From Bdellovibrionota bacterium (lineage in GTDB: Bacteria > Bdellovibrionota > Bdellovibrionia > Bdellovibrionales > Bdellovibrionaceae), in contig CAUJGP010000032.1 in assembly GCA_963170155.1 (NCBI GenBank), forward strand, positions 1-64,000: a stretch of DNA of 64,000 nt, written 5' to 3'. Made by a program: the position numbers and the translations under genes. The notes under the pieces were generated by a model. The model was not told the DNA's origin. It searched no databases and saw nothing but the letters and a program-made list of their open reading frames with translations. This document shows, in pieces, positions 57,709 through 63,968 of the stretch (position 1 is its first letter; each line of letters begins with the position of its first letter).

Positions 57709-59412
57709 CTATTGTTGGAATAAATATTGGCATCGTTTCTTCGTAGAAGCGATCTTGGCTTTCTCTGTCACTGACTTAAAAAAATCCCAACCATCTTGTC
57801 GATACTTTTCGGCCAACGGAACGCTATTTTGATCTAGAATACTTTGCCATTGCTGAGAAAAATCTTTGCCGGTTTTTAACTTCACTTCTTCAACCATACT
57901 GTTGAGTCCTTCGTTTATGGAATCTCGCCCTTCTCTAAAACTTATAACTTCATCCGGAAAAATGATCAGGGGAACAAGAATCTCGACCTCTGGGTAAGCA
58001 GATGTAATATTCGAAACTACCCTCTTGCGATCAATATTAACGGCAACAATGCCTCCCAAGATCTTCTCTCTTTTTTTACCATTAATCACTGTTGTTTCGA
58101 AAGATCGACTAAAATTTCGTGCCAGAGACGGGTTGTAAGTCAACGACAAAAAAGAGGAGGCGTGAGGATTCCCAGCATGATGAATGAATTGATCAGAGAT
58201 TTTAGATGGAACTAATTTTAAAGATTTAACACCCCCAAATGGCTGAAAACTCTCCAAACTCTCTCTATAAAGAATATCACCATTGGCAATACGATTGGTG
58301 GTCAAAGATCTGAGACGACGAGTATAACTCCCTTGATTGGCCGAAAGCATTGTGGAAAAAAAACCAATTCGATGACCATCTTCTGATCGTTGTATTTTGT
58401 CAGTTTGATAATCTAATCCACGCCAAGCTACAATAGTATCATTCCAATTGGGTTTCTCAATGGCATTGAGCCAAGTTTTCCAGGCTTGAGTTTCAAAAGG
58501 TTCCATGACTACCCACGGAAGATAGGCTTCTAGCATCTCCCTGACGCCCTTTCGATCATTTGCAAGAATCAAATCATTGAGCTTTTGATCCATGCTTTCA
58601 TATTTTTCCAATAAGCCTGTTTTTTTTCTCCACTCAATCAATTCCCTATTTTTTGTCCTCTGCTGCTTCTGAGCTTGCAAAAGCAATCGATTTAAATTGT
58701 CGCTTAAATGACGTCGAGTCATTTCTACGCTTTTTTGCAAATCCTCCAAGGGGCCATTGAATTGTATATTCGAGATGAGATTGAGTTTAAACTCTTCTAG
58801 GCGAGCCTGTGCCACGAGACTGCCTTGCTGAGCATTGAACAATAACTCAGAAAAAGAGAATATCTTATTGCTAATATCAACCATTGTCAGCAAAGGGTTA
58901 TTCCTTACATGATGTCTAAGAGAAATAACAATATTTGCGGGGCTCTCAGAAACAGGTAAATAGAAATACACCATTAATTTGATCATAGCCATCATGGCAA
59001 TTTCAGGAATTGCTACAGACGGATTTTTTGCGGCCTCAGAAGAAAGATTGAGCGTTACTTGTGCGTAATCAGATTTAAAATCAACAGTCACTTTCGCTGG
59101 TTCAACTTGAGCTTTATCAACAACAATATTAGATTTAAACCGCATAAGGGTAAATTTAAACCACATATGGTCAGAGACACCATCTAAGCTCTCCAACTCT
59201 TGATTATTTGTTTCAAAAGTTAAATCTTTTTCCAAAATCTGAAGTATCGATTGATTTTTTCCATCTTCAAGAACCGTAGCCTTTGCTAACGGTTGATGAA
59301 TAATAAATGGGAAATGTTGAAAAAAATCACTCTGTAAAATGGATAATGAATTGAAAATAAAATAACTAATGGTGAATAAGCCAATTTTCTTCAATAAAAT
59401 AAAATATCTCAT
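57709..59412 (-). CDS. exported protein with ADP-ribosyltransferase-like C-terminal domain
   Basis: A 567-residue protein with an N-terminal hydrophobic export signal or anchor (about 8-45). The middle (about 50-310) is helical and unrecognised. About 322-495 shows the order of an R-S-E type mono-ADP-ribosyltransferase: Arg331 in A-W-R-G-L, the S-x-S/T strand F-L-S423-L-T-Y-N-P followed by A-R-N-F, and the E475-V-E477 motif in Y-P-E-V-E-I-L-V-P, then a hydrophobic strand D-E-V-I-S-F. Such domains move ADP-ribose from NAD to a target, with ExE favouring Arg. AAGGA lies six bases before the ATG. It follows the 785-residue gene by 36 bases, same strand. Lack of activity or a fold-only match remains possible. 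Confidence 0.7.
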   Translation of the reverse strand: MRYFILLKKIGLFTISYFIFNSLSILQSDFFQHFPFIIHQPLAKATVLEDGKNQSILQILEKDLTFETNNQELESLDGVSDHMWFKFTLMRFKSNIVVDKAQVEPAKVTVDFKSDYAQVTLNLSSEAAKNPSVAIPEIAMMAMIKLMVYFYLPVSESPANIVISLRHHVRNNPLLTMVDISNKIFSFSELLFNAQQGSLVAQARLEEFKLNLISNIQFNGPLEDLQKSVEMTRRHLSDNLNRLLLQAQKQQRTKNRELIEWRKKTGLLEKYESMDQKLNDLILANDRKGVREMLEAYLPWVVMEPFETQAWKTWLNAIEKPNWNDTIVAWRGLDYQTDKIQRSEDGHRIGFFSTMLSANQGSYTRRLRSLTTNRIANGDILYRESLESFQPFGGVKSLKLVPSKISDQFIHHAGNPHASSFLSLTYNPSLARNFSRSFETTVINGKKREKILGGIVAVNIDRKRVVSNITSAYPEVEILVPLIIFPDEVISFREGRDSINEGLNSMVEEVKLKTGKDFSQQWQSILDQNSVPLAEKYRQDGWDFFKSVTEKAKIASTKKRCQYLFQQ

Positions 59413-59448: not shown

Positions 59449-61806
59449 CTAATTAAAAATATTTGCGCATTTTAGATGGCCAATGAGGCCTGAAATCTCT
59501 TTCATGCGATAAAGACCCTTTGCATCTTGCTCAAAAACAAAGCCATAACTCTTCATTACTTTTTGTTCATATTTTTCGACAAGAGAGTTCTCGCCTTGAT
59601 AAAATTCAATGCTATCATTAAGGAGTCGCGCCTCTTTATCTGAAATCAATGAAAGCTCAATCATGGGATTTACAATGGATTGGATTCGAGTCCAACGATC
59701 CAATCCTATTTTTTTATTTAATTCTAAAAGAGAAAACCCTTCCGCAAAGACTTTGAATTGTTCTTTCATTTTAGGGTTAAAAGTACCACTCATTAAGGTC
59801 TCAGAATAAAATCCCATTTTTGTTTTAGAAGGAAGGCTTTTTCGAATTTCCAAAAGAACGGTTTCCAAAGTGTTTAAAGCCTTTGACAAATCATCACGAT
59901 TAAAAGGTTTTTGAGTTTTTAAAAGTTGTTCCAAGTCTATGTTGTCTTGGGCTCCCTTTTTCACCGCAAGATGAGCAACTTGCTTTTGGGACAACGGATC
60001 TCTTGACGAACGAAGTTGCTGAACTTTCCTGAAAGTTGATTTAAAAGCGCTATCATTCGGCAGCATCTCAAAGTTAGCAATGGCAGAAGTAATATTTCTT
60101 TCCTGAAAAAGAGATGATATCAATTTAAGTTGATTTGTCTTCCTTTTCGTAGATTGGCTGGCCGCTTGGGCTAAGGTTTCATGATCTGAACCCACAATAT
60201 CCGATATTAAAAAGTAAGCTTGTAACCTTGCCTGCGGTCCCAGATGCTCCCGCAAATAGCCTGTTTCAACCTCGACGATATCAATATTATTTTTTTGTTT
60301 TTGAAGCCAAAGATCCGTCTCTTCGAAAGGCGTATGCACCTGGCCAACGGTGAATCGTTTCATGGTTTCAGGCACATGTTTGGCCAGGGTTAAATCAAGT
60401 AAATGCCCCTTATGAGTTTGAACCTTTGAAGCAGCAACCAGATCCCCCACTTTAAGCCCTTTATTGATGAGAGCTCCAGCTGTTCCGATATAAACAACAT
60501 TTTTATGATTGCCTGTTTTACGAAGAGCCTTTGCAATCGGGATAATTTCATCACCCCAAACTGCAGAAAAGAATCTCCATCGTTGGATATTTCCATTTTT
60601 ATCCTGAAAAAGGTAATCTGAAAATTCATGACTCTGTTGTTCCGAGTTAAACTGAGCATAATTGCGGTAAAAGGGGTCACTTGATTGCTTATAAGCTTCG
60701 GCCCAATCCACAGGACCTGAAGCAAAAACGTCATAATGAAAAGCTCCGGAAGTTTGAACTTTATTCAAAATTTTATCAAACTTAATCTCTTTGTGATTTG
60801 GTAAATTTAACTTATTTGATAAATCTTTTTTTTCGGTAAAAATAACATCCATAAAACCCGCTGACCGAATAGCATCTTCAAAAGCACCTTTTTGCCCTAT
60901 AATCACTTGATCCGCATGAGGAAGACGATGGAGTAAATCAACCAGTTGTGCTTCTACCTTTTGATGCATTTTCGAAGTATTCCCCAGAATACGAACTTTA
61001 TCTTTATTGGAAAAAAATGTTTTCCCATTCACTGTGATTAATCTTAATTGCGCCATCAAATGCTTAACGCGATCTTCTCCAGAAATTTGATTAATGATAT
61101 AAACATATTTTTTTATTTTATGATCATAGGCTAAATAAATTTTATTATAATTACGAGCTAATGGTATAATTTCTTGAATGACTTCTATATCTGTATTTTT
61201 TAAATTTTCTTGAAAAGATTTTTCAGTCCCTATATGAAACTCAAATTCACGATCATGGATAATGGCATCCCAAACAATCGCCCGACTGGTTTTTTCAGAA
61301 ATATAACGCTCATGATCCAAAAGCACTTTACTCCCTTTAATTTTTGGAACTGTCCGCAGGGTGGGATTTTTAGTATTTTCCAGACCTCCCCAAGCCAATG
61401 AATGATTTGAAAAATCGCGAATTTTATATCGACCCAAAAGCTTATTCTTAAAAAAATTATAATTCCAAAAAAGACGAGAGGAGAGATCCTCAAGGTAAGT
61501 TCTGTTGGGAAACTTATGTGTCAGCACTTGAGCAGTCAAATCAGCCCATTTTTGTGAATTATTTAAATCCTCATTTTTTAAATTAAGATTAAGGTAATCC
61601 TCTACGACAAGATCTCGAAGATCTGCTACTAATTGAGCATCTTGCTTTCCAGAGAGCGCATCTGACAAAGCCTTATTATAGTAATCCAAGCGGTCAATAC
61701 CCAAAAGTATTGCAATCGAAGTTCGAGCAGGAGCGTGACTTACATTTTCAGTATACCCAAAACTCAATAGACCTATAAGAATAGAAGCAATAATTGTCAT
61801 TTTCAT
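59449..61806 (-). CDS. exported protein with nucleoside-phosphorylase-like domain
   Basis: A 785-residue protein with a signal peptide (about 1-25). Residues about 354-550 look like the PNP/UDP phosphorylase (MTAN) fold: V-W-G-D-E leading to a helix, V-V-Y-I-G-T-A-G-A-L (438-446), L-K-V-G-D-L-V-A-A (451-459), V-E-V-E (511-514, in place of the usual M-E base/ribose motif) and I-S-D-I-V-G-S (534-540). The catalytic details differ, so it might cut N-glycosidic bonds or merely bind a nucleoside. The N-terminal 350 and C-terminal 230 residues are unrecognised and largely helical. First gene of a two-gene unit with the ADP-ribosyltransferase-like gene. No strong site before the ATG. Confidence 0.7.
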   Translation of the reverse strand: MKMTIIASILIGLLSFGYTENVSHAPARTSIAILLGIDRLDYYNKALSDALSGKQDAQLVADLRDLVVEDYLNLNLKNEDLNNSQKWADLTAQVLTHKFPNRTYLEDLSSRLFWNYNFFKNKLLGRYKIRDFSNHSLAWGGLENTKNPTLRTVPKIKGSKVLLDHERYISEKTSRAIVWDAIIHDREFEFHIGTEKSFQENLKNTDIEVIQEIIPLARNYNKIYLAYDHKIKKYVYIINQISGEDRVKHLMAQLRLITVNGKTFFSNKDKVRILGNTSKMHQKVEAQLVDLLHRLPHADQVIIGQKGAFEDAIRSAGFMDVIFTEKKDLSNKLNLPNHKEIKFDKILNKVQTSGAFHYDVFASGPVDWAEAYKQSSDPFYRNYAQFNSEQQSHEFSDYLFQDKNGNIQRWRFFSAVWGDEIIPIAKALRKTGNHKNVVYIGTAGALINKGLKVGDLVAASKVQTHKGHLLDLTLAKHVPETMKRFTVGQVHTPFEETDLWLQKQKNNIDIVEVETGYLREHLGPQARLQAYFLISDIVGSDHETLAQAASQSTKRKTNQLKLISSLFQERNITSAIANFEMLPNDSAFKSTFRKVQQLRSSRDPLSQKQVAHLAVKKGAQDNIDLEQLLKTQKPFNRDDLSKALNTLETVLLEIRKSLPSKTKMGFYSETLMSGTFNPKMKEQFKVFAEGFSLLELNKKIGLDRWTRIQSIVNPMIELSLISDKEARLLNDSIEFYQGENSLVEKYEQKVMKSYGFVFEQDAKGLYRMKEISGLIGHLKCANIFN

Positions 61807-61926
61807 AATTAAGGAACCATAGTTTGTATTTTATGTTCTTATTGAAAGCCAAATATAAATCACATCATTAATAAATGAAATTTATTTAAAATTAGAGATA
61901 ATATTTACTATTGATGGTCCCAAAAA

Positions 61927-61965
61927 TGTCACCTTTAAATTATTTTTTCAAAATTTGTCACCTTT
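61927..61965. repeat. 10-bp direct repeat TGTCACCTTT, two copies 29 bp apart
   Basis: TGTCACCTTT occurs at 61927-61936 and 61956-61965, each followed by an A/T-rich segment. The repeat lies between the start of the phosphorylase-like gene (minus) and the FecR/Ig-like gene (plus), about three helical turns apart, so it could be an operator. The rest of 61807-62120 shows nothing else I recognise. Confidence 0.4.
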
Positions 61966-62120
61966 CTAAAAATGTATGGACCATTGACCCTAGACCCTCT
62001 TTGCTGTTCCTCTCATATAGTCTTAGGCATAAAGTCCATATTTACCAAGTTAGATGTTCATTACATAGTTCCTCCCTAACTGTTTATAGGAATGTTCCGA
62101 TAATAATTTCGGAGGTAAAT

Positions 62121-63968
62121 GTGGTCTCCAGTATTAAAAGAATTGCTTTAGCCACGGTTGTATCAGCACTGGGTTGTGCTCTTACTTATTGGTGGCATAT
62201 ACAAAATGAACCAAAATCTCTCAGTGACTCTGAGTCGGATGTCATTGCTTACATTACTTCAACCAAAAAAGACATCCATCGAAAAGGATTTAACAATGCC
62301 CTTTGGGAACCAGCAGAAGAATTAGACCGCCTACGCTCCGGAGATTCTGTCCGCACATCCGGAGATTCTGAAGCTAGAATTCAATTCTACCAATCCAATC
62401 GCTATATTGATCTCGAAGCAGAATCCATGATTGTTATTCAAAAACAAGAAACAGAAATTAATTTGGAACTTCTAGAGGGATCACTTTTTGTCAATGGGAT
62501 GGATAAAGCAAATGAATCTGATTCCACAGATCTGAGCAAAAACACGTTAACTCTGACCTCGCAAGGTGGAAAAGTTGATCTTTCCAAATCCGCAGCACAA
62601 CTCTCGGGATCCTCAAAAGACAAAGTGAACCTCAAAGTCCTTAAGGGAGCCGCTCAGTTTATCAAAACCGGTGGGAAAACAGAAATTATTCAAGAAGGAA
62701 AAGCGGGAGGAATCGGTAAGGCCGGAATTCAAGTTAATACCGAAAGAGTTAAAATCCTATCTCCAGATAGTTCCAAACCTTATTTCACCAATGCCTTATC
62801 TCCGACTCCTCTTACAATCAAATGGTCTGGCTTTCCATCTAAAGCAAAAGTGACTTTAGAAAGTGGCTCCAATAGAAAAAAATTAATCCCCACCTCAGTA
62901 GAACTAAAGTCTCCAGATCAGCTCAACGTAGTCTGGAAACCTGGCGTTTACTACTGGAAACTCCGAGCGACAGACCCAAACACCCAGGTAAATCTGGGTG
63001 AGAGCTCTATATATAAGACCGAAATCATTGGTCGCTATCCACCCACCCCTGTGGCTCCGGAACCCAACTTCGTGCTACAAACGAGAAAATCCAGCGAAAA
63101 CATCACACTTCGCTGGAGTGCTCCCCAAGAATATAAAGAAGTTTTAGTGGAACTTCACAATGATGGAACAAAACAAATTATATTTAGCAAAAAGCTACCG
63201 GCCTCAAAAGAAGATCAAGATATCCCTAATTTACCTCTTGGAACCTATTCATGGAGACTCACCGCTTTTCCAGAGGATAACAATACACCTCTCAGAAGCC
63301 CCGAATATCGGTTTTATATTAATGAAAAAAGGATCATCAAAGTTCCTATCGCGTGGAAATCCAGCCTTCCTGAAACGCAATACTTCGTCAACTCAGACCC
63401 AAAACTCACTCTCATGTGGGATTCAGAAGGAAAAGACAGAGTTCACAAATGGAAAGTCAATATCGCTCCCGAGGGCGTAGACCTTTCCAAAGCAGAAGCT
63501 AATGAATCATGGCAAGATCGATTTGAAAAAACAGTGACAAAACCAGGTCGTTATTTAGCTTTTGTTTCCGCTGTTGATGGAGAAAATGAAACTATTGGCA
63601 CCTCAGAGGTTCGAGCTTTTAATGTCCAACCACTCCCTCTGCTGGCGGCACCCGCTCTCCTTCCAAATGACTCCAGCGAATTTTTAGCAAAACCTGATGG
63701 CTCACTCTTTTTACGCTGGCATCCCATCAATGATTCCAGTAACTATTCCGTCACCATTAAAGATAAAGATGATAAAGTAGTGAATCAATTCAACTCAACC
63801 TTACCGTACCTCAGGCTCACGAATCTTATGCCTGGATCTTATTTTGTTGAAATCAATGCTGTCGATCAATATGAACGGGATGGAGCCCTTTCCGCAAAAC
63901 GAATTATCTTGGTTCCAGATAAGAGTGAAGTTAAAGCACCGACTCTAAAAAAGATAAAGGTGAATTAA
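62121..63968 (+). CDS. membrane-anchored FecR-domain protein with fibronectin/Ig-like repeats
   Basis: A 615-residue protein. One N-terminal membrane helix (about 5-25), then a FecR-type domain (about 45-135, with L-x-S-G-D-S-V-R-T-S-G-D-S-E-A-R-I and L-L-E-G-S-L-F-V) and three or four beta-sandwich repeats with W-S/W-H and L-x-x-G-x-Y/S-W-x-L signatures up to the end. FecR domains outside iron signalling are common in surface and adhesion proteins of this group. I start at GTG 62121 because GGAGGT lies five bases upstream; the frame is open to 61911 without a site. The next ATG follows two bases after the stop. Confidence 0.85.
   Translation: MVSSIKRIALATVVSALGCALTYWWHIQNEPKSLSDSESDVIAYITSTKKDIHRKGFNNALWEPAEELDRLRSGDSVRTSGDSEARIQFYQSNRYIDLEAESMIVIQKQETEINLELLEGSLFVNGMDKANESDSTDLSKNTLTLTSQGGKVDLSKSAAQLSGSSKDKVNLKVLKGAAQFIKTGGKTEIIQEGKAGGIGKAGIQVNTERVKILSPDSSKPYFTNALSPTPLTIKWSGFPSKAKVTLESGSNRKKLIPTSVELKSPDQLNVVWKPGVYYWKLRATDPNTQVNLGESSIYKTEIIGRYPPTPVAPEPNFVLQTRKSSENITLRWSAPQEYKEVLVELHNDGTKQIIFSKKLPASKEDQDIPNLPLGTYSWRLTAFPEDNNTPLRSPEYRFYINEKRIIKVPIAWKSSLPETQYFVNSDPKLTLMWDSEGKDRVHKWKVNIAPEGVDLSKAEANESWQDRFEKTVTKPGRYLAFVSAVDGENETIGTSEVRAFNVQPLPLLAAPALLPNDSSEFLAKPDGSLFLRWHPINDSSNYSVTIKDKDDKVVNQFNSTLPYLRLTNLMPGSYFVEINAVDQYERDGALSAKRIILVPDKSEVKAPTLKKIKVN

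Follow-up and report, generated by a model that had tools for sequence, protein, structure and literature searches.

What would a predatory bacterium gain from exporting an enzyme of the nucleoside phosphorylase fold? This question is raised by an open reading frame (ORF) at 59449-61806 on the minus strand of a 64,000-nucleotide stretch of DNA (the window; positions 1 to 64,000 of contig CAUJGP010000032.1, assembly GCA_963170155.1, Bdellovibrionota). The ORF starts with ATG and encodes a 785-aa protein, referred to below as the nucleosidase-like protein; its source genome is 2.85 Mb in size, and the nearest relatives carrying the gene are Bdellovibrionaceae. On balance, the evidence favours the reading that predatory Bdellovibrionota secrete an effector made up of two enzymes, of which this protein is one. 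The main interest of the locus lies in a partner gene, in proteins that unite both enzymes, and in a C-terminal cysteine tail, none of which figured in a preliminary description made from the DNA sequence.

Fold and layout of the nucleosidase-like protein

Residues ~283-572 almost certainly adopt the PNP/MTAN fold, as judged from a model predicted from a 12-row alignment (mean predicted local distance difference test score, pLDDT, of 76). In a Foldseek search, this model yielded 497 PDB matches at E<=1e-3, the top 50 of which were phosphorylases or nucleosidases without exception, and VIA-align matched the domain to DeoD, uridine phosphorylase, human PNP, and MTAN (Z 18.9-20.0, ~205 aligned residues, root-mean-square deviation ~2.7 A). 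The features identified in the gene are as follows.

59449..61806, minus strand: exported 785-aa protein with a nucleoside-phosphorylase/nucleosidase-fold core (ORF; homologs)
61729..61806, minus strand: putative signal peptide of the Sec type, residues 1 to ~26 (read from the sequence; more evident in orthologs)
61414..61734, minus strand: N-terminal helical domain without assigned fold, residues ~25-131 (predicted model, high-pLDDT helices)
60961..61314, minus strand: accessory alpha/beta region, residues ~165-282, shared with the short PNP-only relative L034 (model, alignment)
60091..60960, minus strand: nucleoside-phosphorylase-fold domain, residues 283-572 (VIA-align, Foldseek)
60469..60489, minus strand: IGTAGAL glycine motif, residues 440-446, directly preceded by the invariant Tyr439 (alignment)
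60265..60276, minus strand: VEVE, with Glu512/Glu514 as equivalents of MTAN Glu172/Glu174, ribose binding (homolog invariance; forced global profile alignment)
60199..60204, minus strand: Ser535-Asp536, equivalents of MTAN Ser196/Asp197, catalytic acid (homolog invariance; profile alignment)
59452..59469, minus strand: C-terminal tail CANIFN, in which Cys780 is the sole cysteine of the protein (sequence)

Sequence-based searches were less sensitive. The Pfam family PNP_UDP_1 (PF01048) matched the window protein with E 0.0022 and 17.8 bits and did not reach its curated cut-off of 25.1, which is a matter of sequence sensitivity, not of structure. Within the same family, a further 16 genomes encode homologs (identity <=42%). 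Of 16 homologs, 14 matched PNP_UDP_1 at E<=1, the best being the short PNP-only relative L034 (E 8e-8, 32.4 bits), which passes the cut-off. A PDB search with the single window proteins (the nucleosidase-like protein and its partner) gave no matches; the top PDB matches of the nucleosidase-family profile were MTA/SAH nucleosidases. A single-sequence scan of the genome contigs recovered no relatives, and an alignment query recovered 11.

The preliminary description had proposed a phosphorylase-like core with four motifs at residues ~354-550 of an exported and unusually large protein. The motifs occur in the order given (IGTAGAL, 440-446; LKVGDLV, 451-457; VEVE, 511-514; ISDI, 534-537) and within that span, at residues 440-537, and the core lies beyond chance by Pfam, Foldseek, and VIA-align; the profile search called for there left the fold unrefuted, and the structure comparison was decisive. 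The large size was borne out as well, and the N-terminus resembles a Sec-type signal, which is clearer in orthologs (there MRKIYTLLLAFL...VYA). Extensive sequence flanks the core, with ~282 aa on the N-terminal side and ~213 aa on the C-terminal side. Residues 185-282 were also considered as a duplicated half-PNP, a suspicion arising from strand order only, but a profile alignment with PNP enzymes was negative and gave this candidate no support.

Active site

The sequences of MTAN, DeoD, and Udp from Escherichia coli K-12 were used for comparison of the active site. With MTAN (Pfs/MtnN), DeoD, and PF01048 in general, residues ~283-572 have in common the fold, the G-[ST]-x-G-[AG] motif, and the order and spacing of the VExE and SD catalytic motifs. 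In a forced global profile alignment, VEVE pairs with VEME of MTAN and ISD with ISD; because the overall score of this alignment is low, the equivalence with MTAN leans also on motif order and spacing, the distance from Glu to Asp being 22 residues here and 23 in MTAN. Glu512, Glu514, Ser535, and Asp536 are invariant in every homolog row covering them.

The phosphate-binding arginines of true phosphorylases, on the other hand, appear to have been replaced. In a motif alignment with DeoD and Udp, the position of DeoD Arg87 appears to be occupied by the invariant Tyr439 and that of DeoD Arg24 by Ala308. The position of MTAN Glu12 appears as Ala308 in the motif alignment, with the conserved Gln305 and Lys306 close by. 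Because the phosphate-site arginines have apparently been lost, a nucleosidase (hydrolase) is likelier than a phosphorylase on these motifs, and ‘nucleosidase-like’ is the safer label. In addition to apparently lacking DeoD Arg24/Arg87 and MTAN Glu12 at the equivalent positions, the window protein differs from MTAN and DeoD in being exported, in containing its core within 785 aa with large N- and C-terminal regions, and in being partnered by, or fused with, an ADP-ribosyltransferase-like domain.

An ADP-ribosyltransferase-like partner gene

Downstream of this gene, after a gap of 36 bp, the same strand carries a second gene, which encodes an exported-looking protein.

57709..59412, minus strand: partner gene, 567 aa, exported-looking and ADP-ribosyltransferase-like
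57925..58440, minus strand: ADP-ribosyltransferase-like domain, core at residues ~325-496, with Arg331, Ser423-x-Thr425, and Glu475-x-Glu477 (invariant residues; weak fold matches)
57712..57732, minus strand: C-terminal tail CQYLFQQ, in which Cys561 is the sole cysteine of the partner (sequence)

By its sequence, the partner carries the R / S-x-[ST] / [EQ]-x-E signature of mono-ADP-ribosyltransferases. In alignments of 15 and 9 rows, Arg331, Ser423, and Glu477 are invariant in the partner family, position 475 is E or Q, and position 425 is T or S except in two rows of one alignment. The same elements occur in the same order in the R-S-E/Q mono-ADP-ribosyltransferases (cholera toxin A1-like enzymes, TreX, Scabin, and pierisin), from which the partner differs in its very low identity, its position outside all database families searched, its long helical N-terminal region, and its link to the nucleosidase-like protein. 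A second look at residues ~325-557 with VIA-align returned mostly ADP-ribosyltransferases (cholera toxin A1 family, TreX, Scabin, and pierisin) at 8-19% identity.

Several results count against the assignment and, through it, against a two-enzyme effector. The VIA-align matches are weak, with Z values of 5-6.8 that fall within the chance range (helical decoys reached up to 7.7). Foldseek with the whole partner model, a poor one (pLDDT 62), found no match at E<=1e-3, and the partner has no match in Pfam or in the PDB sequence search; Pfam with the partner plus its homologs returned nothing consistent, and the partner profile found no relevant match in PDB. Taking motif and suggestive fold together, on which the suffix ‘-like’ rests, the partner is probably an ADP-ribosyltransferase.

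A further exported protein of 308 aa (L048:5037-5963) is encoded upstream of an unfused nucleosidase homolog, and its ‘GLYMATNP’ and ‘FHWADASD’ segments recall other ADP-ribosyltransferase classes; library searches with this protein gave no match.

Linkage and fusion of the two genes in Bdellovibrionota

Among 369 Bdellovibrionota genomes surveyed, strong matches to the nucleosidase family were found in 50 and the partner family in 53. Both families occur together in 48 genomes, the partner alone in 5, and neither in 314 (Fisher p 6e-52, in a test that ignores phylogeny and relatedness), and within the same order the two are found in almost identical sets of genomes. In most Bdellovibrionaceae, the two genes are adjacent and overlap by ~22 bp if the first start is used, whereas the window shows the 36-bp gap.

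The two families have also been joined into single proteins. Proteins of 1268-1309 aa holding both were found on three contigs (L050, L051, and L053), with a broken-up copy on L055; the fusion contigs are labelled Bacteriovoracaceae, Halobacteriovoraceae, or Bdellovibrio sp. Across the survey, ~22 genomes contain both families in one open frame of ~1040-1330 aa. In one clade, two ADP-ribosyltransferase-like genes, the PNP gene, and an IucA-like gene are consecutive in this order (L279), and L280 has one ADP-ribosyltransferase-like gene. Because the nucleosidase-like protein and its partner co-occur, lie adjacent to one another, and are repeatedly fused, they appear to act in one process, and a functional link between them is very probable.

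C-terminal cysteine tail

Both proteins end in a short segment that in Bdellovibrionaceae typically reads [RS]-C-[ES]-x-[VI]-[FL]-x and usually contains the only cysteine of the mature protein. As counted on genome stretches, a cysteine occurs within the last 16 residues in 28/28 members of the partner family, 19/22 of the nucleosidase family, and 4/4 fusions, compared with 48/305 other ORFs. By composition, CSx[IV]F would be expected at a gene end ~0.02 times per 3,700 proteins, a figure that is only a guide as the motif was picked post hoc. Genome-wide searches with DNA patterns for the tail gave matches that were mostly not gene ends, and the pattern alone is therefore not diagnostic; the informative matches are those terminating a signal-peptide ORF.

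Such tails are common to signal-bearing proteins of unrelated families, including an IucA/IucC-like protein. An exported ABC1/UbiB-family kinase-like protein (L174:4095-6176, minus strand; L292-L316; E 1.9e-29) has tails such as RCEMVFN and RCEAIFL. Almost every member of the Bdellovibrio-like genus encodes it, even species in which the nucleosidase pair is absent. An exported C26-type glutamine amidotransferase (L238:1292-2386; E 1.2e-28) has a terminal CSKVF, and an exported protein of 441-448 aa adjoining an ADP-ribosyltransferase paralog (L060:6840-8186 and L061:4442-5767) has the tail CSxVFx. By eye, a GFGH motif makes the 441-aa protein look possibly glycosyltransferase-like, but library searches gave this no support, and the protein is treated here as unassigned.

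MYXO-CTERM, GlyGly-CTERM, and PEP-CTERM are C-terminal sorting tags. Like such tags, the cysteine tail is a short conserved end with a key residue on unrelated exported proteins; unlike them, it has no subsequent transmembrane helix or basic cluster and consists only of C-x-x-[VI]-[FL] plus 0-2 residues. That the tail serves as a sorting or delivery signal is a tentative proposal. Equally speculative is its wider form, in which a previously undescribed signal would mark an arsenal of exported enzymes with cytosolic cosubstrates for routing to prey. The arsenal would comprise the nucleosidase, the ADP-ribosyltransferase, the ABC1-family kinase, the IucA-like synthetase, and the amidotransferase, the nucleosidase-ADP-ribosyltransferase pair being the clearest two-part weapon.

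Possible function of the pair

In the proposed mechanism, the nucleosidase-like protein would probably cleave a purine nucleoside or nucleotide at its N-glycosidic bond by hydrolysis and not by phosphorolysis, as the apparent loss of the phosphate-binding arginines suggests, and the partner, with its R-S-[EQ]xE signature intact, would act as a mono-ADP-ribosyltransferase-like enzyme. Judging from their signal sequences, both proteins would be exported by the general secretory route, and the cysteine tail, which is common to other exported cosubstrate-dependent enzymes, may route both onward. NAD+ and nucleotides are cytosolic and scarce outside the cytosol, and for this reason the site of action would most likely be the prey cytoplasm or prey cytosol released during predation. 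There, the two enzymes would modify proteins of the prey and deplete NAD+ and adenine nucleotide pools; the substrate of the nucleosidase-like protein could be NAD+, adenine nucleotides, free ADP-ribose, or the product of the partner, none of which is favoured. Exported enzymes that depend on NAD+, nucleotides, or ATP, occur paired, and bear the same kind of tag are best read as effectors acting in the prey cytosol, where these cosubstrates are present, and we lean towards the view that the pair is directed at prey.

The following points weigh against this view. The signal peptides were called by eye throughout, and the co-occurrence statistic carries the phylogenetic caveat given above. The proteins of the clade with consecutive ADP-ribosyltransferase-like, PNP, and IucA-like genes have lipoprotein-like or lipobox-like starts by sequence reading, and lipoprotein-like proteins would be held on the predator surface. 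Both genes are missing from about half of the species of the Bdellovibrio-like genus g4, and the pair is therefore not essential to predation.

These lipoprotein-like starts would suit an alternative in which the two are envelope proteins whose target is the predator itself, within its own periplasm, or rival predators sharing the prey cell, and not the prey cytoplasm; signal peptides indicate only exit from the cytoplasm. This alternative is unlikely, considering the scarcity of NAD+ and nucleotides outside the cytosol and the absence of an obvious immunity-like gene beside the pair.

Somewhat less likely still is nutrient scavenging, in which the exported nucleosidase or phosphorylase would degrade prey nucleosides in the bdelloplast for uptake of bases and sugars, the partner being regulatory or incidental. 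Purine salvage is the usual role of the fold, the sequence of the domain indicates a competent active site, and predators consume prey nucleic acids. Scavenging leaves unexplained, however, the near-obligate pairing or fusion with an ADP-ribosyltransferase-like protein and the tail common to exported kinases, and about half of the genus does without the nucleosidase-like protein.

An anti-phage defence module of the Detocs or CBASS type with a PNP effector is very improbable. ATP-cleaving PNP-domain effectors are known in Detocs (PMC11249213), and PNPase domains have been predicted in conflict systems (PMC7159879). With Detocs and related effectors, the window protein has in common a PNP-fold domain for which nucleotide depletion may be proposed, but those effectors are intracellular and sensor-linked, whereas this protein would be exported by a predator and is linked to an ADP-ribosyltransferase-like enzyme. 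Both members of the pair bear N-terminal export signals by sequence reading, their immediate neighbours (RNase Y, ferredoxin-like, and FecR-like genes) are not defence genes, and PADLOC found no match for the nucleosidase-like protein, the partner, or the fusion; PHROGs gave no convincing match. Similarly improbable are catalytically dead scaffolds that only retain their folds, for which the apparent loss of the phosphate-site arginines and an identity to known enzymes of just ~10-18% in the structure matches might speak, since the core catalytic positions are invariant in both proteins across homologs that are ~25-40% identical overall.

The way in which Bdellovibrio reaches the cytoplasmic contents of its prey has been listed as an open question (PMC10225642). 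A prey-directed two-enzyme module together with the tail, which points to additional candidates, would supply a definite set of effectors and an export signal amenable to testing, in organisms that are considered as living antibacterials. If true, it would also show PNP-fold effectors, so far placed in intracellular phage defence, in secreted attack on other cells. No paper describing the pair, the fusion, or the tail was found in the open-access literature searched, where absence is not proof, and related terms gave nothing in a predation proteome paper.

Neighbouring genes and other exported PNP-like proteins

Divergent from the pair, the window encodes a FecR-like plus fibronectin-III-like protein (61911-63968, plus strand), for which the Pfam matches are weak. 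Two additional exported-looking PNP-like proteins are encoded elsewhere in the same genome: an 841-aa frame with a cytidylyltransferase-like N-terminal domain (L277:4162-6687, contig C37), which has no ATG, GTG, or TTG close to its start, and an 895-aa PNP-domain protein (L278:5182-7869, contig C2). In a relative (L034:4302-8990), the short exported PNP gene is flanked by radical-SAM and exported cytidylyltransferase-like genes.
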